DNA of 64,000 bases from Desulfobacula toluolica Tol2. Lineage in GTDB: Bacteria > Desulfobacterota > Desulfobacteria > Desulfobacterales > Desulfobacteraceae. The position numbers were made by a program, and so were the translations under genes. The notes under the pieces are model-generated. The model ran no database searches and was not told the origin of the DNA. It saw only the letters and a list, made by a program, of their open reading frames with translations. The stretch is taken from contig NC_018645.1 in assembly GCF_000307105.1 (NCBI RefSeq), positions 3,730,001 to 3,794,000 on the forward strand. The letters run 5' to 3'. Positions 49,909-64,000 of this stretch are shown here, piece after piece; within the stretch, counting starts at the first letter, position 1; every line of letters starts with the position of its first letter.

Positions 49909-50301
49909 ATGAGGATAGCCTTTCCTGTTAAGGAAAATAACGGACTGGAAAGTATCGTGGATGAACATTTTGGTGTTGCTGAAAATTTTTTAATTGTTGA
50001 CATGGAAACCCGGGAAATTGAGCTTAAAAAAAATCAAAAGCTTTCAGCTGAAGGCTCCAGATGTAAAACCGGCCTGTTTGAAAAAAAAGACAATGTGGAT
50101 GCGGTTGTAACCAAATGCATGGGGGATGGGTCTCAAAGGAACCTTGCGTCATCAGGCATTAAGGTTTATCAGGCTGTAGAAGATACCATACTCAAAAACC
50201 TGGACCTTCTTGAAAAAGATGAACTCAAGCCGTTCCATATATTTGATTTTTGCCAGACAAAAAAGAATAAAAAGGAAGGCGGCTGCGGACACCATCATTA
50301 G
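49909..50301 (+). CDS. NifX/NafY-like Fe-Mo cofactor-binding family protein
   Basis: 130 residues from the ATG at 49909, which follows TTGGAGGGATGCA; a longer frame lacks a site. The dinitrogenase Fe-Mo-cofactor-biosynthesis fold is seen in MRIAFPVKENNGLESIVDEHFGVAENFLIVD and VVTKCMGDGSQRNL. The C-terminus GGCGHHH is a likely metal site. Small stand-alone members are common in anaerobes without nitrogenase and may carry iron-sulfur or molybdenum species. The next gene starts 12 bases later. Confidence 0.75.
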   Translation: MRIAFPVKENNGLESIVDEHFGVAENFLIVDMETREIELKKNQKLSAEGSRCKTGLFEKKDNVDAVVTKCMGDGSQRNLASSGIKVYQAVEDTILKNLDLLEKDELKPFHIFDFCQTKKNKKEGGCGHHH

Positions 50302-50313
50302 GAACAAACCAAA

Positions 50314-50871
50314 TTGAAATCTATATTGAGCCTGATAGGCAAATTATTATATCGGTTCATGGGATGGACCTATGATGAACTGCCGGGTTATTGGACCGGC
50401 AAATGTGTTGTGATCGGCTTTCCTCATACAGCGAACATGGATACAGTCCGGGCATTGACCTATATTAGAATTGCAAAGATCAATGCCCGGCTTCTGGTTA
50501 AAGCGGAGTGGTTTTTTTTCCCCATGTCCATTATCCTTAAAAGCCTTGGCGGTATGCCGATAAAAAGGGATAAAACCCATGGATTTGTTAAAACCGTAGT
50601 CAGGGAATTTAATAAAAGAGAAAAACTTATCCTGGCAATGGTGCCGGAAGGCACAAGAAAAAATGTAGCATCCATAAAAACAGGTTTCTGGTATATTGCA
50701 AAAGGGGCTAATGTGCCTATTCTCTGCTGGTATCTTGATAATCAGGCAAAAAAAACCCGCTGGATCGGTAAAATCAACCCTGGAAAAACCCTGGAAGGTG
50801 ATTTGCTGAAAATTCAAGAATTATATCAAAATGTTGGATTTTCAATTCCTTTGAATAATCTTGTTTTATAA
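50314..50871 (+). CDS. Acyltransferase of the PlsC-like family
   Basis: 185 residues from a TTG with AGGAAC upstream. The catalytic HxxxxD motif is present as HTANMD, followed by ILKSLGGMPIKRDK and the acceptor-site PEGTR (VPEGTRKNV). The enzyme is likely a membrane-associated phospholipid acyltransferase, as PlsC converts lysophosphatidate to phosphatidate, but the sequence is short and belongs to a divergent bacterial branch. It follows the NifX-like gene closely. Confidence 0.75.
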   Translation: MKSILSLIGKLLYRFMGWTYDELPGYWTGKCVVIGFPHTANMDTVRALTYIRIAKINARLLVKAEWFFFPMSIILKSLGGMPIKRDKTHGFVKTVVREFNKREKLILAMVPEGTRKNVASIKTGFWYIAKGANVPILCWYLDNQAKKTRWIGKINPGKTLEGDLLKIQELYQNVGFSIPLNNLVL

Positions 50872-50938
50872 CTGTATTATAACCATCGTGTTGACGTAAC
50901 CCCAGTTTATGTAACCTATTGAAAAACAAATAAAATTA

Positions 50939-50967
50939 TTGACATATAAAGGCTCGTTCTTTACACT
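50939..50967 (+). promoter_or_regulatory. Sigma70-type promoter for the split glutamate synthase
   Basis: TTGACA at 50939-50944 and TACACT at 50962-50967 with a 17-base spacer. Transcription would begin near 50974, leaving an untranslated leader of about 80 bases before the first gene. The leader carries short A/T palindromes but no clear terminator. Confidence 0.6.
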
Positions 50968-51056
50968 GAAGTCTTTGAAAGATTTACCTTAAAGTACTTT
51001 TTTTAAAAAAATCAAGCCAATGCTTTGATATTTTAAAGACAAGGAGAGTAGATATA

Positions 51057-52187
51057 ATGTGTCGTCTGTTTGCACTTACCAGCAAGGATCCTGTGAGTCC
51101 CATGCTTGCCGTCAAAGCCCTTGATGTGATGAAAGAGGGTCATGACGGATCTGGCGTGGGATTGCTGCTTCAGGATCTGGGTGGCCCTTTTGAAGAGATG
51201 AAAGATGCACCGATTTTATCCGGTATATTCAGCGAAGAAGGTATCCGGCGTCTGGATCTTTTCATGATGGACCAGGGGTTTCTTACCAAATATAAGATTT
51301 CTTTAAAGGTTCCCAAAAAACCGGTTAAGGGCATTCCCAAGCGAGATCTTTACCTGATCAGAGCCTACGAACTGCCCGAAGACTGGGACAATCTCGAACC
51401 GGATGAAATTTCCAGACGGCTGATGATGATCCTGTTGAAAATCCGTGAAATGGGTGAAGAAAAAAAAGATATGATGGTCTTCTCCTTTTGGCCGGATACC
51501 ATAATGATCAAGGAGATCGGTGATCCCATGCAGTTGGCCGAACATCTGGGCCTGGATAGAAAAGAACTCAATGCCAGAATTATTATGGCCCAGGGCCGTC
51601 AAAATACAAATTATGCAATCAATCTTTATGCCTGCCACCCGTTTTTTATCAATGGCTACTGCACCATGACAAATGGAGAAAATACAGCTTTTATTCCTAT
51701 CAAAGATTTTTTGTCATCAAGGAAATTTCCAGGTTATATGGGGTATCATTCCGATTCCGAGGTGTTTGCTCATATCCTTCACTATTCAATGGTTGGCCTT
51801 GAACTGGGAATTGATGCTTATAAACATGTGATTACCCCTTTACAGGAAGATGATCTTCAGCAACACCCGGACGCCCTGTTCCTTTCACACTTGAAACGAA
51901 CCTGCAGGCCACTTATTATTGATGGTCCCAATTGTGTTATCGGGACCCTGCCGGACCATTCCATGTTCATGGTTCAGGACAGAAAAAAACTTCGCCCCGG
52001 TGTGGTGGGTGGAAAACCCGGTCTGTTTGGACTTTCCTCTGAAATCTGCGGTCTTGATGCCGTGATCCCGGATAGGGATAAATCAAAAGATATACAACCC
52101 ATGCACATTGATACAGCAATTGTCAGCCCTGACCGCCAGGAGGTAAGCATATGTCGTCAAACAGAAGCCTTGAACCTTCCTCTTTAA
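51057..52187 (+). CDS. Glutamate synthase, glutaminase (class II amidotransferase) subunit
   Basis: 376 residues equal to the N-terminal domain of GltB. The nucleophile is Cys2 (MCRLFAL), exposed after Met removal; HDGSGVG and TNYAINLYACHPF are further landmarks. It releases ammonia from glutamine for the FMN subunit encoded next. GGAGAGTAGATATA precedes the ATG. The next gene starts inside its last 37 bases. A separate glutaminase subunit is the archaeal/anaerobe form of the enzyme. Confidence 0.88.
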   Translation: MCRLFALTSKDPVSPMLAVKALDVMKEGHDGSGVGLLLQDLGGPFEEMKDAPILSGIFSEEGIRRLDLFMMDQGFLTKYKISLKVPKKPVKGIPKRDLYLIRAYELPEDWDNLEPDEISRRLMMILLKIREMGEEKKDMMVFSFWPDTIMIKEIGDPMQLAEHLGLDRKELNARIIMAQGRQNTNYAINLYACHPFFINGYCTMTNGENTAFIPIKDFLSSRKFPGYMGYHSDSEVFAHILHYSMVGLELGIDAYKHVITPLQEDDLQQHPDALFLSHLKRTCRPLIIDGPNCVIGTLPDHSMFMVQDRKKLRPGVVGGKPGLFGLSSEICGLDAVIPDRDKSKDIQPMHIDTAIVSPDRQEVSICRQTEALNLPL

Positions 52188-53785
52188 GCCTGAATGATCT
52201 GCCCTGGCAGATCCGGTACAGCAACGACCGGTGTACCCTGTGTGGGCAGTGTACTGCGGTATGTCCCGTCAAGGCTATTGAACTGAATGTGTTTCAAAAA
52301 CGAATCATTAAAACCTCGATTCAAAAAGATAAAGACCATTCCAACCAGTATGACACTTTTTACGGTATTCGCCAGACAACCCGGGTGGAAAATGCCTGTA
52401 TAGGATGCGCCATGTGTACCATGGCCTGTCCAAATGATGCCATTGCCCCGGTGAAAAACCCAGGACTGGACAGGCTCAAGTTTCATGTTAACCAACAAGG
52501 TGTCCCCAGAAGACGCGGAGGCCGAAGAAATTCGTCCCAATCCGTACTGGACAGGATCAAGTTCACCCGTATCTCCATGCTCACCGACCCTGCCCTTGAT
52601 GCGGGCCGCCATGAGTTTGAAATGAGAACTCTTCTGGGGCGGGTACTTTCCCCCAGGGAAAACATGAAGCGGTTGAGGGAAAACGGATGGATTCCGCCGG
52701 TCAGAGAAATTTATCCTTTGATCATCGGCGGCATGTCCTTTGGCGCTCTTTCTCCCACCATGTGGGAGGGTCTCCAAATGGGGGTTGCCTACCTGAACGA
52801 GGAACTTGGCATGCCGGTCCGGATCTGCACAGGGGAAGGAGGATGCCCGCCAAGGCTGCTGCGATCCAGGTTTTTAAAATATGTGATTCTCCAGATTGCA
52901 TCCGGATATTTTGGATGGGATGAGATTATTCATGCCATTCCCCACATGAAAGAAGACCCCTGTGCCATTGAGATCAAATACGGCCAGGGAGCCAAGCCAG
53001 GGGACGGGGGGCTGTTGATGTGGCATAAAGTCAATAAGCTCATTGCCGCCATTCGCGGGGTGCCCCAGGGCGTAAGCCTGCCAAGCCCGCCAACCCATCA
53101 GACCCAGTATTCCATAGAAGAATCTGTGGCAAAAATGATTTTGTCCATGTCCATGGCATGGGGATTCAGGGTGCCGGTTTATCCGAAAATTTCCGCATCT
53201 TCGACATCCCTTGCCGTATTGAACAACCTGACCCGGAACGACTATGCCTCAGGGCTTGCCATTGACGGTGAAGACGGTGGGACCGGTGCTGCGTATACGG
53301 TTTCCATGGATCATATGGGCCATCCTATTGCTTCTTGTATCCGGGACAATTATCTGAACCTGACCAAAATCGGAAAGCAAAATGAAATTCCCATCTTTGC
53401 CGGTGGAGGTATTGGAAAAAACGGAAACCTTGCAGCCAATGCAGCTGCATTGATAATGCTGGGGGCAAGTGGAGTTCAGATAGGAAAATATGTGATGCAG
53501 GCGGCTGCCGGTTGCGTTGGAACCGAAGAAGACCGATGCAATGTGTGCAATGTTGGAATTTGCCCCAAAGGCATCACTTCCCAGGACCCAAGGCTTTACA
53601 GAAGGCTTGATCCTGAAGACGTGGCAGAAAGAATCGTCGATCTTTTTGTCTGCTTTGATACCGAGCTTAAAAAGATCGTTGCCCCGCTTGGGCGTTCAAC
53701 ATCGTTGCCCATCGGGATGTCGGATGCCCTTGGAATTGATGATCATGCGGCAGCTCAACGCCTCAATATAAAGTATGTGGTCTAA
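52151..53785 (+). CDS. Glutamate synthase, FMN/synthase subunit with two 4Fe-4S sites
   Basis: 544 residues. Two ferredoxin motifs at the N-terminus (CTLCGQCTAVCP and CIGCAMCTMACP) precede the FMN-binding TIM barrel with CTGEGGCPPRLL, KYGQGAKPGDGG, DGEDGGTGAAY and GGGIGKNG, and the cluster Cys motif near CNVCNVGICP. It aminates 2-oxoglutarate to glutamate with ammonia from the amidotransferase. The ferredoxin pair suggests ferredoxin-level electron input. GGAGGTAAGCAT precedes the ATG. Confidence 0.92.
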   Translation: MSSNRSLEPSSLSLNDLPWQIRYSNDRCTLCGQCTAVCPVKAIELNVFQKRIIKTSIQKDKDHSNQYDTFYGIRQTTRVENACIGCAMCTMACPNDAIAPVKNPGLDRLKFHVNQQGVPRRRGGRRNSSQSVLDRIKFTRISMLTDPALDAGRHEFEMRTLLGRVLSPRENMKRLRENGWIPPVREIYPLIIGGMSFGALSPTMWEGLQMGVAYLNEELGMPVRICTGEGGCPPRLLRSRFLKYVILQIASGYFGWDEIIHAIPHMKEDPCAIEIKYGQGAKPGDGGLLMWHKVNKLIAAIRGVPQGVSLPSPPTHQTQYSIEESVAKMILSMSMAWGFRVPVYPKISASSTSLAVLNNLTRNDYASGLAIDGEDGGTGAAYTVSMDHMGHPIASCIRDNYLNLTKIGKQNEIPIFAGGGIGKNGNLAANAAALIMLGASGVQIGKYVMQAAAGCVGTEEDRCNVCNVGICPKGITSQDPRLYRRLDPEDVAERIVDLFVCFDTELKKIVAPLGRSTSLPIGMSDALGIDDHAAAQRLNIKYVV

Positions 53786-53798
53786 GGATGTGTGATTT

Positions 53799-56129
53799 AT
53801 GAAAAAAGATGCATTTATTAAATTATCCGGCAAAAAAGATGAAAAAAGAATTCCTTCCAGGGTTTTGGAAGAGATCATTCATCAGCATATTAAAAACGGC
53901 CGCAGAAATATTGAAGTTGAAGGATACGGCCAACATGGTATCGGCGGAAGGCTCTGGGATGGGGGAAGCGATAATATCCACATTCGTATTACGGGTCAGT
54001 CCGGCCAGAGAACAGGATCTATGGGCAATGCAAACACCCGGATTGAAGTCATGGGACCGGCTTCTGACGATGTTGGCTGGCTCAATGCAGGTGCTGAAAT
54101 CATTGTCCACGGACATGCTTCCAATGGCGTGATGAACGGAGCTGCCCAGGGCAAAGTCTATATCGGCGGTTCCATTGGTGCCCGTGGCATGACCATGACC
54201 AAAAGAAACCCGAGATTTGAACCGCCCGAACTCTGGGTACTGGGTTCGGCAGGCGATTATTTTGGTGAATTCATGGCAGGTGGTATTGCCGTTATCTGCG
54301 GTTACAATGCAGATCCACAGGATCAAATTTTAGGGTACAGGCCCCTTGTGGGTATGGTTGGGGGCAAAGTTTTTGTCCGGGGCAGTGTAAATGGCTTTTC
54401 ACAAAAAGATGCCAAACTATCCACCTTGTCGGATGAACAGTGGCAATGGCTGGTGATCAACCTGGATGCTTTCTTGAAAAAAATCAATAAAAGCGATCTG
54501 TTAAAATCATATTCAGAACGTTCCCAATGGCAGCTTATTGAAGCAAAATCCGCCAGGGAAAAAGCTCAGGTACCTGAAAAGCCATCCATGTCATGGTTCA
54601 GGGAACAGGTGTGGGACAAGGAACTGGGCAAAGGCGGCCTTATCGGCGATCTTCAGGAAACTGAAAAAGGAACCATTCCCTTAATTACCCGGGGGGATTT
54701 AAGACGATACATTCCGGTATGGGAACAGGGAAAATATATGGCGCCATGTCAGGCTGCCTGCCCCACAGGTATTCCGGTTCAGCAAAGATGGAATATGGTC
54801 CGGCTGGACAATATTGACGAGGCCGTCAGCATGGGTCTTGAATACACTCCGTTCCCGTCAACCGTCTGCGGATATCTTTGCCCCAGCCCATGTATGGCCT
54901 CCTGCACAAGGCATCAGAATTATTTGTCTCCAATTGATGTACGGCTTTTGGGAAAGGCCGGGGAAAACGTCAAATTGCCGACACCCGCTAAAAAAAGCAA
55001 AAAAAAGATTGCCGTTATCGGTGCAGGCCCGGGCGGCATTTCAGCTGCATGGCAACTAACTTTAAAGGGGCATACAGCAACATTATTTGATACAAGCGAT
55101 ACCATTGGCGGGAAAATTTCTTCTATTATTCCCGGTTCAAGACTCCCCCAAGAGACCCTTGCAACAGAACTTGCCAGGGTTAAAAAAATGGTTCCCGACA
55201 TAAAATTAAACCAGACCATAGACAGCAAAAAATTTTCAAAAATCAAATATGACTATGACTTCACCATTGTCGCTACGGGCGCTAAAAAACCAAGATCTCT
55301 GCCGATTAAAGGCATTGAACAAGCCGTGTTTGCCAATGATTTTCTTGCAAGTGCCAAACAAGACAAGGCTGCACCCGGAAAAAAAGTGGTCATCATTGGT
55401 GCCGGAAATGTGGGGTGTGATGTGGCAACCGAAGCCCATCGCCTGGGGGCCGAAGAAATCACCTTGATTGACGTTCAAAAGCCTGCTGCGTTTGGCAAGG
55501 AAAAAGAGGATGCAAAGGCAATAGGTGCTGTTTTCAAGTGGCCCTGCTTTACTCAAAAAATTACGTCAAAAGGCCTGTTCATCCAGGATGGTGAGTTTTT
55601 AAAGGCAGATACTGTGGTAATCTCCATCGGGGATGTTCCGGATCTTGATTTTCTTGATGATACCATTAAAATTGAAAACGGATTTGTTACAGTTGATGAA
55701 TTCAACCAGACCTCCGACCCCAGAATATTTGCCATTGGAGATATTGTAGGGCCCGGTTTGATAACGGATGCCATTGGGGCAGGAAAAAGAGTTGCCCGTA
55801 ACATCGACCGGATCATCAGCGGAAAAAGTCCGAATCATGGAGATCGTTTGCCCCGGGTGGACAAGCAACGGATCAGTCTTGAATATTATAACCCCAGAAC
55901 TATTGCCGACAATTTGAGTGATTGCGGTACGGATTGTGCCTCCTGCGGAAATTGCAGGGATTGCGGAATCTGCGTGGCAATCTGTCCTGAAGCTGCCATT
56001 AAAAGAATTGAAACAGACAACGGTGCATTTGAATATACAGTGGATGCAAATCTTTGTATTGGCTGCGGTTTCTGCAAAGGAGCCTGTCCGTGCGGGATAT
56101 GGGATTTAATCCCCAATTCTGCCCTGTAA
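53799..56129 (+). CDS. Glutamate synthase GXGXG domain fused to GltD-like oxidoreductase and ferredoxin
   Basis: 776 residues in three parts. Residues 1-250 are the GXGXG beta-helix of the GltB C-terminus (GQHGIGGRLWDGG, GNANTRIEVMGPASDDVGW). Residues 300-680 are the GltD-like small subunit with the cysteine cluster CQAACPTGIP and CGYLCPSPC, an FAD motif VIGAGPGGISAAW and a pyridine-nucleotide motif VIIGAGNVGCDVA. The C-terminal 80 residues carry two ferredoxin motifs (CGICVAICPEAA, CIGCGFCKGACP). It passes electrons from NAD(P)H to the synthase. Joining GXGXG to the small subunit is unusual. Confidence 0.9.
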   Translation: MKKDAFIKLSGKKDEKRIPSRVLEEIIHQHIKNGRRNIEVEGYGQHGIGGRLWDGGSDNIHIRITGQSGQRTGSMGNANTRIEVMGPASDDVGWLNAGAEIIVHGHASNGVMNGAAQGKVYIGGSIGARGMTMTKRNPRFEPPELWVLGSAGDYFGEFMAGGIAVICGYNADPQDQILGYRPLVGMVGGKVFVRGSVNGFSQKDAKLSTLSDEQWQWLVINLDAFLKKINKSDLLKSYSERSQWQLIEAKSAREKAQVPEKPSMSWFREQVWDKELGKGGLIGDLQETEKGTIPLITRGDLRRYIPVWEQGKYMAPCQAACPTGIPVQQRWNMVRLDNIDEAVSMGLEYTPFPSTVCGYLCPSPCMASCTRHQNYLSPIDVRLLGKAGENVKLPTPAKKSKKKIAVIGAGPGGISAAWQLTLKGHTATLFDTSDTIGGKISSIIPGSRLPQETLATELARVKKMVPDIKLNQTIDSKKFSKIKYDYDFTIVATGAKKPRSLPIKGIEQAVFANDFLASAKQDKAAPGKKVVIIGAGNVGCDVATEAHRLGAEEITLIDVQKPAAFGKEKEDAKAIGAVFKWPCFTQKITSKGLFIQDGEFLKADTVVISIGDVPDLDFLDDTIKIENGFVTVDEFNQTSDPRIFAIGDIVGPGLITDAIGAGKRVARNIDRIISGKSPNHGDRLPRVDKQRISLEYYNPRTIADNLSDCGTDCASCGNCRDCGICVAICPEAAIKRIETDNGAFEYTVDANLCIGCGFCKGACPCGIWDLIPNSAL

Positions 56130-56196
56130 AAAAACAAAATGAATTATTTTTCCGATTGAAAATGAATTGTGATTTTTGATTATCATAGAGGATATT

Positions 56197-56925
56197 ATGG
56201 AAAAACCGGAACAGACATATGACGACTACATAAAGGCTTTGACCGATATCAGTCGTGCCATTACATCGGATCTGTTTATCGAAGACCTTTTAAAACTGAT
56301 TGTTATGGTAACCGCAAAGGTTACCGGAGTTGAGATCTGTTCTTTATGGATTGTCAACGAAGATGAAAAACCACCGAAAATTCGCCTCAAGGCCACCCAG
56401 TCCATTTCACCGGAGTATATCAAGGATAGGGCTTTGAACCTGGATGAAGGTGTTGTGGGGTATGTGGCGACACACAAAAAACCATTGGTTTTGAATGATG
56501 TGTTGGAAAGCGACCGGTTCAAAGAAAAAGAGATGGCTAAAAAACTGGGCCTTGTCTCAATGGTTGGTATCCCTTTGATAACAAAAGATGAAAAAGTCAT
56601 TGGGGTCTTAAACTGTTTTACAGCAACTCCCCATGAATTTTCCGAAACGGAAATAAATCTTTTAAGTGTGGTTGCCAATCAATCGGCTGTTGCCATTGTC
56701 AATACGGAACTGATGGTAAAAACCCGTGTTATCCAGGAGGAACTGGAAGCCCGCAAAAAAATTGAACAAGCCAAGGAGGTTCTCATGCATAATCGAAAGA
56801 TGACCGGGGATGAAGCCTATGGGTGGATAAGAAAGCGAAGCATGGATTCAAGAAAATCCATCCGTGAAGTGGCCGAAGCTGTGATTCTCTCCAATGAGAT
56901 TTTTAATAATGAGTCGTCCTCTTAA
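56197..56925 (+). CDS. GAF-ANTAR transcription antiterminator
   Basis: About 242 residues from the ATG at 56197, which follows AGAGGATATT. A GAF domain (about 15-170; SLWIVNEDEKPPKIRLKATQSI, VGIPLITKDEKVIGVLNCF) leads through a helix into a C-terminal ANTAR domain (KKIEQAKEVLMHNRKMTGDEAYGWIRKRSMDSRKSIREVAEAVI) that binds paired RNA hairpins and prevents termination. It follows the glutamate synthase genes and lies before a promoter whose leader contains a terminator. Nitrogen-related genes are common targets of ANTAR proteins. Confidence 0.85.
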   Translation: MEKPEQTYDDYIKALTDISRAITSDLFIEDLLKLIVMVTAKVTGVEICSLWIVNEDEKPPKIRLKATQSISPEYIKDRALNLDEGVVGYVATHKKPLVLNDVLESDRFKEKEMAKKLGLVSMVGIPLITKDEKVIGVLNCFTATPHEFSETEINLLSVVANQSAVAIVNTELMVKTRVIQEELEARKKIEQAKEVLMHNRKMTGDEAYGWIRKRSMDSRKSIREVAEAVILSNEIFNNESSS

Positions 56926-57300
56926 CTGTTTTCAAAAAATGTTTATTTTGCCTGTTGATATCCCATTGAAACGCCACTCACAATATATGCCCCCGGATAA
57001 ACAGTTCTTCAAAAACCGTAACAATCAATTAGGCAATTCCCACATATGCAAAATAGGGTATCCCCATATGGTAGCAGCAGATCCCTGTTGGCAATTTTTT
57101 TGAGTTTCGTTTTTTTTAATTGCTTGAATAAAGACGATATACAATCAAATAGCAAAAAACAATTCGTAATAATAGAAAAAAGTTGCAATTCAATCAAAAA
57201 ACGCAGAACAATTGTGCTGTGAGTGATATACTTCAGGAATGATTCTGCCAGTCAGTGTGCATTTGGACATCCCATACAAATTTTATTTTTTTTCAAACCC
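56926..57300. other. Intergenic stretch, no gene seen
   Basis: About 375 AT-rich bases between the GAF-ANTAR stop and the next promoter. No terminator stem, RNA gene or coding frame with a ribosome site is apparent; the small frames here are low-complexity. Confidence 0.5.
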
Positions 57301-57329
57301 TTGACATTTTAAACAATAGCATTTAAGCT
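57301..57329 (+). promoter_or_regulatory. Sigma70-type promoter of the mvhD-metV-metF operon
   Basis: TTGACA at 57301-57306 and TAAGCT at 57324-57329 with a 17-base spacer. Transcription would start near 57336, about 110 bases upstream of the first gene, leaving a leader that includes a terminator-like hairpin. Confidence 0.6.
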
Positions 57330-57346
57330 AACTAATCTGGCTAAAT

Positions 57347-57422
57347 ACAAAGGCGTATTAGCGAAGTTAAAAGAAAACAAAGGCGTTTTCCCAAATTATA
57401 ACCTGGGCAAATGCCTTTTTTT
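57347..57422 (+). terminator. Leader terminator/attenuator upstream of the mvhD-like gene
   Basis: GGCGTTTTCCCA (57382-57393) pairs with TGGGCAAATGCC (57404-57415), one mismatch and a 10-base loop, followed by T7 (57416-57422). It sits 22 bases before the first start codon of the operon and about 45 bases after the predicted transcript start, so it acts on the operon's own leader. The block ACAAAGGCGT occurs twice (57347-57356 and 57377-57386). The second lies in the terminator stem, and the first could pair with the same 3' strand, giving a possible competing fold. Confidence 0.65.
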
Positions 57423-57444
57423 ATTTTGATTTTGGGAAGAAAAA

Positions 57445-57849
57445 ATGAAAATTCATAGCACACCAAAAATTACGCTGTTTCACTGTTTACACTCTTTTGA
57501 AGAAACCGCTTCACTGTTGGACGGTTGTGAAATTAAAACCGTTAAAATGGCCTGCTCCTCAATGACAAAGGATATCCATCTTTTAAAGGCATTTGAAGCA
57601 GGAGCGGATGCCGTTCTGGTACTGGTTTGCCCTGAAAAAGGCTGCCGGTATGCCCAGGGCAGCATACGGGCAAAAAAACGGGTTGAGTATGTAAAAGCCA
57701 TTTTAGATGATATTGGAATGGATGGAAGACGATTGAACATATTCAACACAACCTCAAGCGACAGCGATTCAATTAAAGATATTATCCGAAAAACGGTATT
57801 GGAGCTTGACACGATCGGCCCGAATCCCGCTTTAAATTATCCAAATTAA
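57445..57849 (+). CDS. MvhD-like hydrogenase iron-sulfur (delta) subunit
   Basis: 134 residues of the MvhD/FlpD family, small 2Fe-2S proteins that pass electrons to heterodisulfide-reductase-type flavoproteins. Landmarks: VKMACSSMTKDIHLLKAFEAGADAVLVLVCPEKGCRYAQG and RVEYVKAILDDIG. No HdrA gene is in the window; in acetogens an MvhD works with HdrABC and MetVF. GGGAAG precedes the ATG. A repeat copy separates it from metV. Confidence 0.82.
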   Translation: MKIHSTPKITLFHCLHSFEETASLLDGCEIKTVKMACSSMTKDIHLLKAFEAGADAVLVLVCPEKGCRYAQGSIRAKKRVEYVKAILDDIGMDGRRLNIFNTTSSDSDSIKDIIRKTVLELDTIGPNPALNYPN

Positions 57850-57875
57850 TTCATCATCCCATAGATGCTGTTCTA

Positions 57876-57960
57876 ATAACGGCAATGGCAGATTGACCTG
57901 CCACAAGCAACATTGAAAGTAACTGTTTGGATTTTTGAAGACTTTCATATAAAAAAAAAT
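57876..57960 (-). repeat. Double-hairpin intergenic repeat, copy 10 (between mvhD-like and metV)
   Basis: ATAACGGCAATGGCAGATT, CATTGAAAGTAACTG and TTGGATTTTTGAAGACTTTC followed by ATATAAAAAAAAA. The left arm is almost identical to copy 3 at 19444-19546, the middle is shortened. A spurious protein start inside it would add the same residues as at copy 3. Confidence 0.7.
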
Positions 57961-58017
57961 ACCATCCGCATGGATGTTATGTGCCAAACCTGTCCCCCAA
58001 AAAAAGTGGAGTATAAA

Positions 58018-58686
58018 ATGATAACCGGTAGTCAAAAACCCATTAATGAGATTGTTCAACTTACAGAACCCTATAAAAAAATTTTAATCCTTGGTTGCGG
58101 CACCTGTGTAAAAACATGCTTTGCAGGTGGTGAAGACGAAGTGGCTGTTCTTGCATCCGCTCTAAGGCTTGCGTTCAAGAAAATGGCCAAATCCATTGAA
58201 ATAGAAGAACTGACCATTGAGCGCCAGTGTGAAAATGAGTTTATACAATGTGCATCATCCGGGGTTGGCAAAAATGATGCCGTCCTTTCCCTTGCCTGTG
58301 GTGCAGGTGTTCAGGCCCTGGCAAAGCGGTTTGCAAAAGCAGTGGTGTTGCCGGGTGTAAATACCACCTTTATCGGTATCCAGGAAAGCCCGGGTATTTT
58401 TACCGAAGAATGCTCCGGTTGCGGGAACTGCGGCCTTGCTCTCTTCGGAGGTGTTTGTCCGGTCACCAGATGCGCTAAAAAATTACTCAACGGACCCTGC
58501 GGCGGCTCCCAAAACGGTGTTTGTGAAGTCGATCCAAATACTCCATGTGCCTGGCACCTGATTATTGAACGGCTGACAACTTTGGGGCAACTTTCCAATC
58601 TGAAAAACTATATCCCTCCAAAAAGCTGGAATACCAGTCTTTCCGGCGGACCCAGAAAATTGATCAGGGAGGATCATATCATATGA
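58018..58686 (+). CDS. metV: Methylene-tetrahydrofolate reductase partner protein MetV
   Basis: About 222 residues from the ATG at 58018, with GTGGAGTATAAA upstream; an earlier in-frame ATG lies inside a repeat copy and is rejected. The Cys-rich MTHFR C-terminal domain is clear: LGCGTCVKTCFAGG, CSGCGNCGLALFGGVCPVTRC and LLNGPCGGSQNGVCEVDPNTPCAW, which bind zinc and iron-sulfur clusters. MetV and MetF form the reductase of anaerobes that reduces methylene-THF, or oxidises methyl-THF in sulfate reducers. The gene overlaps metF by 4 bases. Confidence 0.9.
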   Translation: MITGSQKPINEIVQLTEPYKKILILGCGTCVKTCFAGGEDEVAVLASALRLAFKKMAKSIEIEELTIERQCENEFIQCASSGVGKNDAVLSLACGAGVQALAKRFAKAVVLPGVNTTFIGIQESPGIFTEECSGCGNCGLALFGGVCPVTRCAKKLLNGPCGGSQNGVCEVDPNTPCAWHLIIERLTTLGQLSNLKNYIPPKSWNTSLSGGPRKLIREDHII

Positions 58687-59591
58687 AAATTTACAGCCAG
58701 CTTCATGAAAAACTTTCCAGGGGTGAATTTGCAATAACAGGCGAATGCGGCCCTCCAAGAGGGGCTAACAAAGAGGTTATTGATAAAAAAATCAAGCTGC
58801 TCAAGGGCTTTGTGGATGCGGTAAACGTCACAGACAACCAAACTGCCATTGTCAGGATGTCAAGTATTGCGGCTTCCGCCCACCTGGTTGCCGCAGGCCT
58901 GGAACCGGTGATGCAGATGGTGGTCAGGGACCGCAACAGAATTGCCATTCAATCGGATATCATGGGAGCCTATTCTCTTGGTATCAAAAATATTTTATGT
59001 TTGTCTGGAGATCACCAGAAATTCGGCAGCCAGCCGGAGGCCAGAAATGTGTTTGACATCGACTCTGTCAATCTCATCCGAACCGTTCGCAACATGCGGG
59101 ATACAGGCAAGGACATGAGCGGGTTTGATCTGGATGTGGCTCCTCAGATGTTTATCGGCGCTGCAGCCAATCCTTTTGCCGACCCCTTTGAATACCGTGT
59201 AATACGGCTGGGCAAAAAGTTTGATGCCGGGGCGGATTTTGTTCAGACCCAGTGCATCTATAATATGGGCCGGTTCAAGGAATGGATCAGGCTGGCCAAT
59301 GAGGAAGGCCTGACACAAAAGGGGTATATCCTCGGTGGCGTCACTCCGTTAAGATCCGCTGGCATGGCCCGGTATATGAACAAAAAAGTTGCCGGTATGG
59401 ATGTACCTGAAGAGATCATCAAACGAATGGACGGTGTTGAAAAAAAGTGCCAGGCAGACGAAGGCATTAAAATCTGCCTTGAAACCATTCAAGCTCTCAA
59501 GGAACTTACCGGGGTACACGGGGTTCATATTATGGCCATTGAATGGGAAGACGCTGTTGCCAGGATTGTGGAACAGGCCGGTTTGAACTAA
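58683..59591 (+). CDS. metF: Methylene-tetrahydrofolate reductase MetF
   Basis: 302 residues, the normal TIM-barrel flavoprotein. Landmarks are AITGECGPPRGA (catalytic Glu in the EFxPP-like position), NVTDNQTAIVRMSS, LCLSGDHQKFG, AAANPFADP, ADFVQTQCIYNM and YILGGVTPL. GGAGGATCATATC precedes the ATG. Together with MetV and the MvhD-like protein it belongs to the methyl branch of the Wood-Ljungdahl pathway. The next gene follows after 19 bases. Confidence 0.95.
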   Translation: MKIYSQLHEKLSRGEFAITGECGPPRGANKEVIDKKIKLLKGFVDAVNVTDNQTAIVRMSSIAASAHLVAAGLEPVMQMVVRDRNRIAIQSDIMGAYSLGIKNILCLSGDHQKFGSQPEARNVFDIDSVNLIRTVRNMRDTGKDMSGFDLDVAPQMFIGAAANPFADPFEYRVIRLGKKFDAGADFVQTQCIYNMGRFKEWIRLANEEGLTQKGYILGGVTPLRSAGMARYMNKKVAGMDVPEEIIKRMDGVEKKCQADEGIKICLETIQALKELTGVHGVHIMAIEWEDAVARIVEQAGLN

Positions 59592-59610
59592 AACAAAAGG
59601 ATGTCAGCAT

Positions 59611-61029
59611 ATGCCTCAAAAATATAATATCCATACAACGCCTGCATTGCCCAGATTTTATCCCGTGGGTAAATATGCCACCATAGAATTCAGGGAAGAG
59701 TGTGCCGGAAGCTGCAAAGAGTGTGTGAAAAAAAAATGTGTGTATGACATTTTCAAGGAAAATTACCTTCATATGAGCAAAATGGAGGAGCCTGAATATC
59801 TGTACACCTGCAATTCATGTTTCAGGTGCATCCAGGAATGCACCAAGGGAATTTTTTCCCGTGTGGTCAATCCTGAATACCGGGAGATCGGCGATGAGTA
59901 TTGGACACCCGATATTCTTCACCGCACCTGGTATCAGGCCCATACCGGCAGCATTCCCGTATCGGGTGCCGGATACAGGGGACCTTTTGTGGGAAAGGGC
60001 TTTGACTCCATGTGGACGGACATGTCCGAGATTGTGCGGCCCACACGGGACGGCATCCATGGCCGTGAATATATCAATACCTGCATAGAGCTTTCAAGAC
60101 GGCCGGAAAGGCTTGGCTTTAATACGGATGGGTCTCTTGCAGTCGATGTAAAGCCTATCCTTGAGATCCCGCTGCCCATCGTGTTCCAGCAGCCTGATTT
60201 TGGCGTATTAAGCAAGGATGTATGTGTTTCCATGCTCAAAGCAGCCCAGACTATTGGAACAAAAATGTTTGTTCCGGCAGCAGATGTGAGTGAAGATCTC
60301 ATGTCGTTTGTATCCACCATTATTCCTGTGGTCACAAAGAAAAATTTTCAAGATTATTCAAAACTTATGGCACTTGCCGACATGGTTGAAATTGAATACG
60401 AACCGGGTATTGAAAAAACAATCTCTGCTTTAAAGTCTACAAATGAAACCCTTTGTATCAGTATAGGCCTGCCCTTGAGGGCTGATTCTGATTATGCCCA
60501 AATTTGTGCCGACCTTTCTAAAACAGACATCGACACCCTCCATGTTTATGCCGATGCAAACGGCAGGGAATTTAAGTCAGAAAATCCGCGATTTATCAAG
60601 GATATGTTAAGAGATATTCACCTGGCATTGATTGATGCCGCTACACGGCAGCAGATCAACATCCTTGCCTCGGGCGGGATAGGAATGGCCGAACATGTGA
60701 ACAAGACCATCATCTGCGGGGCAGACGGGGTTGTTATTGATCTTCCCCTGCTCATTGCCATGGAATGCCGGCTGTGCGGCCGTTGCAAAAAGGAGTTGCC
60801 CTGTCCTGTTGAAATGGAAACCATTGATCCGGCATACGGCAGCAATAGGATCGTAAATCTCATGGGGGCCTGGCGAAACCAGATGCTTGAAATGATGGGT
60901 GCCATGGGATTAAGGGAAGCCAGAAGACTTCGAGGTGAAGTCGGCCGTTCCATGTGGTTTGAAGATCTTGAACAAGAAAGTTTTGCGCCGATTTTTGGTG
61001 AACGCAAAGTATCTATAGACGTGGGATAA
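59611..61029 (+). CDS. Iron-sulfur glutamate-synthase-like FMN protein, degenerate active site
   Basis: 472 residues. The N-terminus has two Cys clusters (CAGSCKECVKKKC and CNSCFRCIQEC). The rest aligns with the FMN barrel of glutamate synthase: NILASGGIGMAEHVNKTIICGADGVVID, CRLCGRCKKELPCPVE near the C-terminus and a terminal LMGAWRNQMLEMMGAMGLREARRLRGE. It lacks the GEGG and QGAKPG motifs found in the two neighbouring synthase subunits, so it may bind flavin without the synthase reaction. It is 4 bases before the next gene. Confidence 0.72.
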   Translation: MPQKYNIHTTPALPRFYPVGKYATIEFREECAGSCKECVKKKCVYDIFKENYLHMSKMEEPEYLYTCNSCFRCIQECTKGIFSRVVNPEYREIGDEYWTPDILHRTWYQAHTGSIPVSGAGYRGPFVGKGFDSMWTDMSEIVRPTRDGIHGREYINTCIELSRRPERLGFNTDGSLAVDVKPILEIPLPIVFQQPDFGVLSKDVCVSMLKAAQTIGTKMFVPAADVSEDLMSFVSTIIPVVTKKNFQDYSKLMALADMVEIEYEPGIEKTISALKSTNETLCISIGLPLRADSDYAQICADLSKTDIDTLHVYADANGREFKSENPRFIKDMLRDIHLALIDAATRQQINILASGGIGMAEHVNKTIICGADGVVIDLPLLIAMECRLCGRCKKELPCPVEMETIDPAYGSNRIVNLMGAWRNQMLEMMGAMGLREARRLRGEVGRSMWFEDLEQESFAPIFGERKVSIDVG

Positions 61030-61032
61030 GTT

Positions 61033-62601
61033 ATGAGCCAATTAAAACATCAATTAAAACAACAACCAAGAAATCCATTGCCCGAAACCAGGGAGACTCC
61101 TTCACGGTTTCGCAATACCATTGGAAAATATATCATCAAACGAAATTCAAACTGTGTCTCCTGTGGAAAATGTGCGCAAATCTGTCTTTTTGGCGTTCAT
61201 ATCATGCCGGACAATCATGCTTCTCCTTTCAGGCCGGTTGAACACAAGTGCATCGGATTTGACTGCAAAAACACAGACCACTACTGCATTGAACACTGCC
61301 CGGAAGACGCACTGGTCATGAAAAAAAATCCTCTTCTGGACACCATGGGCGATTACCGATGGACTCCCGACATGCTGCTGGGCCATTTTGCCATGGCGGA
61401 AACCGGCAAACCTCCTCATGTGGATCTGGAATATAATCTGGGCAATTCCGGCGGCGGATTTGACAAGATGCGGTTTATTAAACCTGACCCGGATTTTGCC
61501 ATTGAAATCAGTGATGAGGAAATAGACACCAGTATTGACCTGAATAAAACAGGAGACGGCCGACCCCTGAAAACCATTTCCATGCCCTGTTACGGCGGCG
61601 GCATGTCTTATGGCTCCACAGCTTTGTCCGTGATTGTCGGACGGGCAAGGGCTGCCAAAAAGCTCAATTCCCTTACCTGTACCGGTGAAGGGGGATATCC
61701 GCCCCAATTTCTTCCCTACAAAGAACATGTGATCACCCAGGTTGCCACCGGCCTTTTCGGGGTCAGAGAAGAAACCATACAAAATTGCCCTATTATGGAA
61801 TTCAAGTATGCCCAGGGAGCAAAACCAGGTCTTGGCGGTCATCTTTTGGGAGAAAAAGTCACCCAGGCCGTTGCTGAAATGAGAGAAACCGTTGTGGGCA
61901 GCTCTCTTTTTTCACCGTTTCCGTTTCATTCCGTATATTCTGTTGAAGATCATAAAAAGCATGTGGACTGGATGAAAGAGATCAACCACAATGTGCTGTG
62001 TTCCATAAAGGTGTCCACCCCCACGGATGTGGACATGGTGGCCATAGGGGCCTATTATGCCGGTGCCCATATCATTCATATTGACGGCAGTTACGGCGGC
62101 ACTGGTGCGGCTCCTGACATTGCCAAAAAGAACATTGCCATGCCCATTGAATATGCCATTCCAAAGGTTCACCGTTTTCTTGAGGCTGAAGGTGCCAGGG
62201 ACAAAATCACCCTGATCGCCAGCGGCGGCATACGGAACGGGCTTGATGTGGCAAAAGCCATTGCCCTGGGTGCTGACGGGTGTGTTATTGGAACAGCTGA
62301 TCTTGTGGCGGTTGAGTGTGTCAGGTGTGGAAATTGTGAAAGCGGCCGGGGATGTGCCCGTGGGATCGCAACCACAGACCCGGAACTGGGATACATGATT
62401 GATGAAGATTATGTGGAACAGAGGCTGGTCAACATGTACATGGCCTGGCGCAAACAGTGGTGCGATATTTTAAGGTCTTTTGGCTTGAAAAGCATCAGGG
62501 AACTGCGGGGCCGGTCAGATCTTCTGGTACACCTGGATTATCTGGATGAACAGGAAAGAAAAAAATACCAGCCTGCACCCGGTTACAAAATGGTTTTATA
62601 A
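61033..62601 (+). CDS. Glutamate-synthase-family FMN protein (second set)
   Basis: 522 residues. A 4Fe-4S region near the N-terminus (CVSCGKCAQICLFG and C..C motifs around HYCIEHCPEDA) precedes an FMN synthase barrel with LTCTGEGGYPPQFL, KYAQGAKPGLGGHLLGEKV, GSYGGTGAAPD, LIASGGIRNGLDVAKAIALGADG and CVRCGNCESGRGCARG. All core motifs are kept. It shares its C-terminal MYMAWRKQWCDILRSFGLKSIRELRGR with the preceding gene. It forms a set with that gene and the amidotransferase-like gene after it, beside metF rather than a GltD gene. Confidence 0.85.
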   Translation: MSQLKHQLKQQPRNPLPETRETPSRFRNTIGKYIIKRNSNCVSCGKCAQICLFGVHIMPDNHASPFRPVEHKCIGFDCKNTDHYCIEHCPEDALVMKKNPLLDTMGDYRWTPDMLLGHFAMAETGKPPHVDLEYNLGNSGGGFDKMRFIKPDPDFAIEISDEEIDTSIDLNKTGDGRPLKTISMPCYGGGMSYGSTALSVIVGRARAAKKLNSLTCTGEGGYPPQFLPYKEHVITQVATGLFGVREETIQNCPIMEFKYAQGAKPGLGGHLLGEKVTQAVAEMRETVVGSSLFSPFPFHSVYSVEDHKKHVDWMKEINHNVLCSIKVSTPTDVDMVAIGAYYAGAHIIHIDGSYGGTGAAPDIAKKNIAMPIEYAIPKVHRFLEAEGARDKITLIASGGIRNGLDVAKAIALGADGCVIGTADLVAVECVRCGNCESGRGCARGIATTDPELGYMIDEDYVEQRLVNMYMAWRKQWCDILRSFGLKSIRELRGRSDLLVHLDYLDEQERKKYQPAPGYKMVL

Positions 62602-62606
62602 TTTTG

Positions 62607-62650
62607 GTTAACGGTTAGCTGTTAACGGTTAGCAATTAACGGTTAACAAT
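62607..62650 (+). repeat. Short tandem repeat between FMN protein and amidotransferase genes
   Basis: Three near-identical units of about 14 bases (GTTAACGGTTAGC, GTTAACGGTTAGC, TTAACGGTTAACAA). The downstream ribosome site (AAGGAA) lies just after it, so copy number would change the distance between the genes. Confidence 0.7.
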
Positions 62651-62664
62651 AAGGAATTTTGATA

Positions 62665-64000
62665 ATGACAAACATCAACAAGAATAAAATCATAAACAAT
62701 ATACTGGCTTCAAGGGGCAGACTTCCCCACATTAAGACACCTGTGAACAAATGCGATGAAGAGGGCGGCTGCGGCGTGACAGGATTTATGGCCTCCATTC
62801 CCGTTGCAGGAAAACATATTTACGAACCCTCGGTTCAAATGCATAACCGGGGTAACGGCAAGGGCGGCGGCATTGCTGCGGTGGGATTGAGTGCCGGCGA
62901 TCTTGGGGTTCCGCAGGATGTGCTGGAAGACCATTACCTTTTGCAGGTGGCATACCTGGATGATACAGCCATTGCCCAGGTGGAGGCCACCAATATCACG
63001 CCCTTTTTTGACGTCTACTCATCTGAAAAAATACCGACGATTGATGATTACACCAGTATCGGTCTGGAGGTCAAGCCGCCGGATGTATGGCGCTATTTTG
63101 TAAGGGTCAGGCCTGCCGTGCTTGAAAAATTTATCCAGGCCAATCATTTTTATGACATGGACAAAAGAAAGGCGGAAGACGAATTTGTCTTCCAGAACTC
63201 CAACCGGCTGAACCAGGTTTATTATGCCTCACTTGGGGAAAAACAGGCTTTTGTCCTGTCCCATGCCAGGAACGTGATGATCCTCAAAGTAGTGGGTTAT
63301 GCCGAACAGGCCACTCAATATTATTGCCTGGACAATTTCAGGGCCCATGGCTGGATTGCCCACCAGCGGTATCCCACACGGGGGCGCTTGTGGCATCCGG
63401 GCGGGGCACATCCGTTTTCCGGCATGCATGAAGCCCTGGTACACAATGGTGATTTTGCCAATTATCATGCTGTCAGCGAGTACTTGAACCAGTACAATAT
63501 CTATCCCCAGTTCCTGACAGACACGGAGACTGCTGTGCTGCTGCTGGATTTGTACAACCGGGTGTTTGAGTATCCACTGGAATATATCATCGAGGCATTG
63601 GCACCGACCACGGAGTATGATTTTGACTGCCTCTCTCCTGAAAAGCAGAAGGTTTACCGTTATATCCAGTCCCAGCACATGACCGGCTCCCCTGACGGTC
63701 CCTGGTTTTTCATCATTGCCAGAAATGACCCGTACAAGGATCTGATGCAATTGATCGGTATCACGGATACGGCCATGCTCAGGCCCCAGGTCTTTGCCCT
63801 CCAGGAACGCGACGATGTCCAGATCGGTCTTGTCTGCTCTGAAAAACAGGCCATTGATGCCACCTTGCAAAGCATTGCAGCCGAAGACAGCCGATTTTGC
63901 CCCATTGCCGACAAATACTGGAATGCCAGGGGCGGCAGCTCAACAGATGGCGGTGCCTTTACCTTTACCATCAAGGATTCGGGAAAAGGCGACGGCTCAA
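62665..64000 (+). CDS. Class II glutamine amidotransferase-like protein of the second glutamate-synthase set (cut by window end)
   Basis: At least 445 residues, open to the window edge. The probable nucleophile Cys lies in EGGCGVTGFMASI at residue about 36, so a propeptide of some 35 residues would have to be removed. Further landmarks are HNRGNGKGGGIAAVG, AHGWIAHQRYPTRGRLWHPGGAHPF and the oxyanion-hole LVHNGDFANY. AAGGAATTTTGATA precedes the ATG. Unlike the 376-residue amidotransferase at 51057 it is longer and continues; the rest might hold the GXGXG domain. Confidence 0.78.
   Translation, partial: MTNINKNKIINNILASRGRLPHIKTPVNKCDEEGGCGVTGFMASIPVAGKHIYEPSVQMHNRGNGKGGGIAAVGLSAGDLGVPQDVLEDHYLLQVAYLDDTAIAQVEATNITPFFDVYSSEKIPTIDDYTSIGLEVKPPDVWRYFVRVRPAVLEKFIQANHFYDMDKRKAEDEFVFQNSNRLNQVYYASLGEKQAFVLSHARNVMILKVVGYAEQATQYYCLDNFRAHGWIAHQRYPTRGRLWHPGGAHPFSGMHEALVHNGDFANYHAVSEYLNQYNIYPQFLTDTETAVLLLDLYNRVFEYPLEYIIEALAPTTEYDFDCLSPEKQKVYRYIQSQHMTGSPDGPWFFIIARNDPYKDLMQLIGITDTAMLRPQVFALQERDDVQIGLVCSEKQAIDATLQSIAAEDSRFCPIADKYWNARGGSSTDGGAFTFTIKDSGKGDGS

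Follow-up and report, generated by a model that had tools for sequence, protein, structure and literature searches.

A glutamate-synthase-like gene set in one operon with MvhD, MetV and MetF in Desulfobacula toluolica Tol2, and its possible electron sources

Glutamate synthase is one of the chief routes by which nitrogen enters cells. Characterised forms of the enzyme take their electrons from NADH, NADPH or ferredoxin, and F420H2 has been proposed as a further donor (PMC3448663). The present analysis concerns a stretch of 64,000 nucleotides of the single-contig genome of Desulfobacula toluolica Tol2 (bases 3,730,001-3,794,000 of 5,197,905; hereafter the window), near the 3' end of which six genes stand in the order mvhD-metV-metF-FMN1-FMN2-GAT. 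An earlier note on this DNA had named MvhD, MetV, MetF and two proteins of the flavin mononucleotide (FMN) type at this place, all five of which are confirmed by Pfam matches (Table 1). The sixth gene, for which the note had called for the remainder to be read, encodes 868 amino acids from TTG 62659 in the genome sequence past the window end, comprising amidotransferase and GXGXG halves. The gene set suggests a previously undescribed way of powering nitrogen assimilation in anaerobes. No description of it was found in the open-access literature, to which the search was confined, and it is probably best seen as a glutamate synthase whose electron input is modular and unlike the known ones.

Layout and conservation of the gene set

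There is an overlap of 4 bases between metV and metF, and gaps of 19 and 3 bases separate metF from FMN1 and FMN1 from FMN2. The gap between FMN2 and GAT is 57 bases, or 63 when counted to the GAT ATG. The metV frame is open from TTG 57913, and the length given in Table 1 is typical of its relatives. An ordinary split glutamate synthase with GltD does lie 1.3 kb upstream of the operon, as the earlier note had stated. In the 20 kb from window position 57001 on, tblastn with the window's own GltD gave no match to a GltD-type protein, and no HdrA was found in the same span. The note's remark that HdrA is missing therefore stands for this locus; it does not extend to three other MvhD-MetV-MetF loci of the same genome, which have HdrA-like matches beside them, or to some other lineages, in which Hdr genes follow GAT.

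Table 1. Genes and leader elements of the locus, in window coordinates
Feature	Position	Strand	Details
mvhD, MvhD-like iron-sulfur protein	57445-57849	+	Pfam FlpD E 6.5e-22; Cys 14, 37, 62, 67
metV	58018-58686	+	Pfam DUF5981 8.1e-36; 222 aa from ATG 58018
metF, methylene-tetrahydrofolate reductase	58683-59591	+	Pfam MTHFR 5.1e-39
FMN1, degenerate duplicate of glutamate synthase FMN subunit (as judged from sequence)	59611-61029	+	PF01645 weak; three four-Cys sites
FMN2, predicted catalytic FMN/iron-sulfur glutamate synthase subunit	61033-62601	+	PF01645 290 bits, 3.3e-86; GEGG, QGAKPG
GAT, predicted class II glutamine amidotransferase + GXGXG	62665-64000, past window end to G000:C1:3795265	+	
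Split glutamate synthase with GltD	51057-56129		1.3 kb upstream of operon
GAF-ANTAR regulator, probable operon antiterminator	56176-56925	+	Pfam GAF_2 5.2e-21, ANTAR 2.7e-19
Hairpin P1, ANTAR-type	57344-57359	+	Hexaloop AAAGGC (A at 1, G at 4)
Hairpin P2, ANTAR-type	57373-57390	+	Hexaloop AAAGGC
Intrinsic terminator stem	57379-57418	+	Reuses P2 loop and 3' arm, then T run

The gene set is conserved far beyond chance. FMN1 orthologues, defined by a cut at E of about 1e-70 or better, occur in 77 of 297 Desulfobacterota genomes; the 132 genomes counted at a looser cut of 1e-10 also include ones with FMN2-like matches or with a fused form that is less closely related. The neighbourhoods of all 77 orthologues were extracted, and neighbour counts use the 57 loci with at least 3 kb of upstream sequence. 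Within 3.5 kb upstream of FMN1 these contain MvhD (52 loci), MetV (39), MetF (36) and glnA (16), with MvhD, MetV and MetF together in 33, MvhD and MetF in 3, MvhD and MetV in 6, MvhD alone in 10 and none of the three in 5. The nearest of the three genes lies no more than 500 nucleotides from FMN1 in all 52 MvhD loci. On the downstream side, all 69 loci with 2 kb or more of sequence have FMN2, and 63 of 64 with 5 kb have GAT. The neighbourhood survey proposed in the earlier note thus finds FMN2 and MvhD conserved and MetF inconstant: MvhD is the more regular partner, and a MetF that is a fixed component is ruled out by its presence in 36 of the 57 loci only. In six loci (L133, L138, L140, L146, L148 and L149) FMN1 is immediately preceded by MvhD and MetV but no MetF, and each has glnA in the vicinity; in these six MetV may be an adaptor that lacks its usual partner.

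A scan of a genome collection, represented by the best 80 of 256 loci and sharing five loci with the first set, shows MvhD in 47, MetV in 41 and MetF in 44 of the 48 loci that have 3 kb upstream. Among these best 80 are the closest relatives of the locus, at 79-85% protein identity, several of them from Desulfobacula metagenome-assembled genomes. Their titles also name Omnitrophota, Planctomycetota, Armatimonadetes, Poribacteria, Hydrogenedentota, Sumerlaeota and Latescibacterota; records from these other phyla are mostly metagenome-assembled genomes, and single names may be binning errors. FMN1 is rare in the phylum of the Planctomycetota record (L108), with 7 of 294 genomes at E 1e-40. Conservation figures combine both sets in 157 loci, of which 5 are in both, yielding 152 distinct FMN1 proteins. 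Neighbours in some loci include carAB as well as glnA. The few GltD-type tblastn matches in the loci belong to the ordinary upstream set of Desulfobacula-type loci (L036, L039, L042, L049); those remaining are HdrA/HdrL-type genes (L100, L101, L113) and one gene in L106.

The synthase core and its place in glutamate supply

FMN2 matches the solved glutamate synthases (PDB 1ea0/2vdc) at 6e-50, and GEGG, QGAKPG and twelve Cys are conserved at about 100% in 139 relatives; with cut-off sequences included, GEGG is present in 145 and QGAKPG in 144 of 152, in keeping with the earlier note's description of a second FMN protein with all motifs. In GAT the nucleophile Cys is residue 36 from ATG 62665 and residue 38 from TTG 62659, so that the 35-residue propeptide proposed in the note is right for the ATG start; the propeptide of the Azospirillum enzyme is comparable, at 36 residues as judged from the shift in residue numbers between 6s6s and 1ea0. 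In 115 relatives, conservation of Cys38 and of the amidotransferase motifs is about 100%, and the GXGXG domain scores 49.1 bits with PF01493 (cut-off 32.5). The sole PDB match of GAT by sequence is subunit C of formylmethanofuran dehydrogenase, via the GXGXG half. An AlphaFold2 model of a close GAT relative, of moderate confidence (mean predicted local distance difference test score, pLDDT, of 72), matches four PDB entries at E <= 0.001, every one a glutamate synthase.

With PF01645, FMN1 gives a weak match of 53 bits that covers the second half of the profile only, and a single-sequence search of the PDB with FMN1 found nothing; a profile search of the PDB reaches glutamate synthases at 5e-12. 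Alignment of its profile with FMN2 (hhalign) extends over nearly the full length, with a probability of 100, an E of 4e-65 and 26% identity. GEGG and QGAKPG are each absent from all 148 unfused relatives, bearing out the earlier note on the first FMN protein. Judged from these comparisons FMN1 is a degenerate duplicate of FMN2. Its three four-Cys sites, conserved at 97-100% in 155 relatives, are probably iron-sulfur (Fe-S) sites. The motif WTDMSEIVRPTRDGIHGREYI recurs letter for letter in 153 of the 157 loci, and most of it falls within residues 117-150, modelled at low confidence, which are a possible contact segment. The predicted fold (pLDDT 77) is closest to glycolate oxidases, with glutamate synthases lower in the list, all being FMN-dependent enzymes. 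FMN1 and FMN2 are fused as one protein in 9 of the 157 loci; an alignment built on one natural fusion misplaced FMN1 rows on its FMN2 half.

On the features testable by sequence the core is a match to glutamate synthase, and FMN1, FMN2 and GAT very probably constitute one genuine enzyme of this kind. With GltBD and the ferredoxin-dependent synthase the set shares a propeptide class II amidotransferase, a GEGG/QGAKPG FMN/Fe-S domain and a GXGXG domain. Its parts are split otherwise: here the amidotransferase is fused to GXGXG, the FMN subunit is separate, and the degenerate FMN1 is an extra subunit. The Azospirillum enzyme aligns three Cys where the FMN subunits here have a four-Cys site. GltD, the partner in GltBD, was not found in the locus, and MvhD/MetVF stands in its place. 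In the MgsABC-type N-methylglutamate synthase the amidotransferase, GXGXG and FMN subunits are separate, whereas the first two are fused in GAT, a comparison of gene layout with no search aimed at methylamine genes.

The earlier note had argued from the ordinary synthase upstream that the set is not needed for ordinary glutamate synthesis. This fits Desulfobacula, with its GltD set nearby, and fails for most carriers examined. These are 54 genomes, a subset of the 77 that passes 90% completeness and 5% contamination; on rounded quality figures at least G001, G047, G108 and G191 would also pass and are left out of the 54. With a full-length synthase domain taken as one above 150 bits, the set's own is the only one found in 43 of the 54 carriers and a second is present in 11. 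In 10 of those 43, a match to the glutamate dehydrogenase family above 30 bits is missing as well. Non-carriers have a full-length synthase in 54 of 58 genomes (Fisher p 5e-16 against carriers, kinship not corrected); these 58 were hand-picked from 220 genomes without an FMN1 orthologue. Among the 58, G045, G081, G007 and G237 carry the giant fusion described below, and G161 has a 1067-residue frame with a weak FMN1-like match. The distribution complementary to other synthases, and the lack of a strong dehydrogenase match in some carriers, speak against a spare enzyme in most carriers examined. Among 15 distant carriers, for which genome completeness is not stated, 8 lack a second synthase. 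No full-length glutamate synthase domain was found in the Desulfobacterota genomes G072, G186, G010 and G014.

An exchangeable electron input

Cys 14, 37, 62 and 67 of MvhD are conserved at 98-100% in 129 relatives. Conserved positions of MetF include E21 (109 of 111), D110 (96 of 111) and Q190 (108 of 111), which we take to correspond to catalytic residues. The three other MvhD-MetV-MetF loci of the genome (L116, L117, L118) have HdrA-like matches alongside, where the operon has the synthase. An electron-transfer role, as the earlier note envisaged, is likely for this conserved unit, given its tie to MvhD and often to MetVF and the HdrA-like matches that stand in the synthase's position elsewhere in the genome. 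The genome holds in all 11 MTHFR-family and 16 FlpD matches, several of the latter with an in-frame TGA and possible selenocysteine (Sec). In a tree that took 36 of 117 module MetFs, at least 3 label changes are forced and the genome's Hdr-type MetFs are interleaved with those of the module, ruling out a single clade of module MetFs; we read this pattern as repeated recruitment or exchange of different MetF lineages in the same slot.

Where MvhD is missing, another redox protein may take over. In four of the five MvhD-less loci (L180-L183) a protein of about 616 amino acids, with flavin adenine dinucleotide (FAD)-oxidase and Fe-S parts, is encoded directly upstream, and the fifth, L154, has neither. 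The FAD-oxidase/Fe-S protein was also detected in L114, L168, L208, L209 and L199-L201. In L199 (1966-9552, minus strand) a single frame of 2528 amino acids joins FAD-oxidase, Fe-S, FMN1-like, FMN2-like, amidotransferase and GXGXG parts, with glnA just upstream, and the genomes from which L200 and L201 come have matching frames of 2531 and 2539 amino acids. The L199 fusion is the strongest evidence for the upstream redox gene belonging to the enzyme. The electron input thus appears to be exchangeable among MvhD, MvhD-MetVF and the FAD-oxidase/Fe-S protein. Some other lineages have HdrC-HdrB followed by HdrA or HdrL 3' of GAT: directly downstream of it, L095:8101-11863 and L101:13602-17383 hold HdrC-HdrB-HdrA(-NuoE)-NuoF or an HdrA with a GltD insert. 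Hdr matches stand upstream in L126, L132 and L178.

The arrangement taken as a whole is best explained, at about even odds in our estimate, by an FMN1-FMN2-GAT synthase that MvhD-MetVF feeds via FMN1. The overall reaction would convert glutamine, 2-oxoglutarate and two electrons to two glutamate: GAT would release ammonia from glutamine, FMN2 would perform the reductive synthesis, and FMN1 would take the place of GltD as electron entry. MetF would oxidise methyl-tetrahydrofolate (methyl-THF) to methylene-THF, with electrons passing from MetF to MetV and MvhD, then to FMN1 and FMN2. In other lineages the same slot would be filled by MvhD where MetF is lacking, an Hdr encoded next to it or elsewhere perhaps taking part, or by the FAD-oxidase/Fe-S protein. 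That FMN1/MvhD is the point of electron entry is likely, and a functional coupling of MetVF to the synthase is somewhat less so, though favoured. The glutamate synthase couple lies at roughly -70 mV, and lactate/pyruvate, which might be the couple used by the FAD-oxidase form, near -190 mV. The methylene/methyl-THF couple is given as -200 mV (PMC8760232), and a direct wire would therefore run from methyl-THF to glutamate, a direction to which we assign slightly less than an even chance. In Sporomusa ovata, tagged MvhD binds MetF in pull-downs, and MetVF oxidises methyl-THF with methyl viologen and runs in both directions with viologen (PMC9430772). A methyl-THF-driven glutamate synthase forming one multi-subunit enzyme, within a modular family whose donor is MvhD/MetVF, MvhD(/Hdr) or FAD-oxidase/Fe-S, is put forward more tentatively still.

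Several observations weigh against this reading. The amidotransferase half of GAT is weak by sequence, with 27.2 bits for GATase_6 at a cut-off of 27, and sequence searches of the PDB with GAT gave no amidotransferase match. MetF is absent from 21 of the 57 loci (10 with MvhD only, 6 with MvhD and MetV, 5 with none of the three), and methyl-THF therefore cannot be the general donor. The gene for acetyl-CoA synthase, taken as a source of methyl-THF, is found in 45 of 54 carriers (44 strongly) and 34 of 58 non-carriers (p 0.007, kinship not corrected), a moderate enrichment that led to the rejection of a tight tie to this gene. It is missing from eight carriers with MetF in the locus (G038, G074, G089, G135, G208, G252, G286, G288), and a supply of methyl-THF therefore cannot be pointed to in every case. 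No methylene-THF reductase besides the module MetF was found in G125, where it must therefore also serve ordinary needs. By a hand tally, a second synthase is present in 5 of 7 carriers with Hdr matches downstream of GAT and in 6 of 47 others (p 0.0025), and this subtype may differ. A free, unlinked GltD or ferredoxin may be the donor instead.

One rival reading is an ordinary ferredoxin- or unlinked-GltD-dependent synthase that is co-regulated with an ordinary MetVF-MvhD for amino-acid synthesis and has no direct electron link to it. The glnA and carAB neighbours of some loci are a sign that genes of biosynthesis collect around the set, ferredoxin-like Cys motifs occur in the FMN subunits, and the loci that lack MetF would be easily accommodated. 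Yet the most constant neighbour is MvhD, for which no separate biosynthetic role is known. It is swapped in the same slot for another redox protein that is fused to the synthase in L199, and the extra subunit FMN1 is foreign to the standard enzyme; we consider co-transcription alone unlikely. We judge equally unlikely a bifurcating hub in which MvhD ties the set to HdrABC or HdrL and NAD(P)H is oxidised at Hdr. Electrons would then flow to MetF, and its reduction of methylene-THF would, together with glutamate synthase, provide the high-potential acceptors that pay for reduced ferredoxin. MvhD is the partner of HdrA in known complexes (PMC2702500, PMC9430772), and the hub would also suit the HdrA-like matches of the three same-genome loci, the single reductase of G125, and the HdrC-HdrB-HdrA genes with NuoE/NuoF-like domains or a GltD insert that lie 3' of GAT in several lineages. 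However, where 8.5 kb of sequence is available (46 loci) such downstream genes are few (HdrA, HdrB and HdrC 3 each, HdrL 4), only four of the six Cys/Sec positions in the genome's three Hdr-linked MvhD proteins are retained in the operon's MvhD, and the FAD-oxidase fusion has no Hdr-type flavoprotein. A different product altogether, made for example by a C1-linked enzyme that resembles N-methylglutamate synthase or otherwise uses ammonia or methylamine, would account for the association with MetVF, and glutamate-synthase-like enzymes with other substrates are known. We regard it as very improbable against the invariant FMN2 motifs, the glnA neighbours and the 43 carriers for which no full-length synthase domain beyond the set's own was found, 10 of these lacking a strong glutamate dehydrogenase match as well.

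Parts of the proposed MvhD-MetVF-fed synthase have precedents. FGltS, a putative F420H2-dependent glutamate synthase, was likewise paired with an unusual electron-input protein by gene neighbourhood; its input is an F420H2 dehydrogenase-type subunit, where the present set has MvhD/MetVF plus FMN1 (PMC3448663). The type IV (Hdr-type) methylene-THF reductase MetVF-MvhD-HdrCBA of Moorella and Sporomusa shares MvhD, MetV and MetF (PMC8760232, PMC9430772), whereas the locus here has no HdrCBA match, a divergent MvhD and a glutamate synthase in the operon. An earlier link between MvhD/Hdr and a glutamate-synthase-type domain is HdrL, an HdrA/GltD-type fusion by mvhD in Desulfobacterium autotrophicum; unlike the present set, it has no amidotransferase or FMN synthase domain in the accessible part of its description (PMC2702500). 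In one survey, MetF, MetV and MvhD encoded side by side are classed together with an HdrABC that is assumed (PMC6085437), and if the methyl-THF link is true, the counting of MvhD-MetVF clusters as Hdr-type bifurcating reductases would need correction. One-carbon oxidation and nitrogen assimilation would then be joined in one enzyme, and energy-limited anaerobes would assimilate ammonia without drawing on NAD(P)H and ferredoxin. The observations describe a probable glutamate synthase form that is spread over many lineages and whose electron source is apparently different and exchangeable.

The leader and neighbouring features

The operon is preceded by two ANTAR-type hairpins and a terminator that ends about 20 nucleotides before mvhD, and the GAF-ANTAR gene is the next gene upstream, between the split synthase and mvhD. 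No strict tandem pair other than P1 and P2 occurs on either strand of the window, and 10 mononucleotide shuffles of one strand contained none. The strict scan detects the hairpin pair upstream of FMN1 in 11 of the 157 loci, and the P2 hairpin sequence is present in all 13 Desulfobacula-type loci listed. All 6 pairs of the P2 stem are invariant in these 13 loci, with 0 compensatory changes; base-pair covariation is not demonstrable here because the stems hardly vary. Described ANTAR-controlled leaders share the two A1/G4 hexaloop hairpins, the overlap of the second with a terminator and the nearby ANTAR gene, and their targets are mostly nitrogen genes, those of glutamate synthesis among them (PMC3369931). 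No difference from these was noted, and the leader here is a further candidate ANTAR target. The anatomy of the leader points to nitrogen control of the operon, in which the GAF-ANTAR protein would turn on the Desulfobacula operon by antitermination, as with other nitrogen genes.

An Rfam scan of positions 50000-64000 reported no family, and PHROGs gave nothing for MvhD and FMN1. A promoter scan gave 27 matches against 19.0 +/- 4.8 in shuffles, and a terminator scan 11 against 11.7, so that neither scan is very informative. At 230 bases 3' of GAT (L005:8496-9617) lies a gene for an old-yellow-enzyme-type FMN oxidoreductase, outside the families that recur in related loci.

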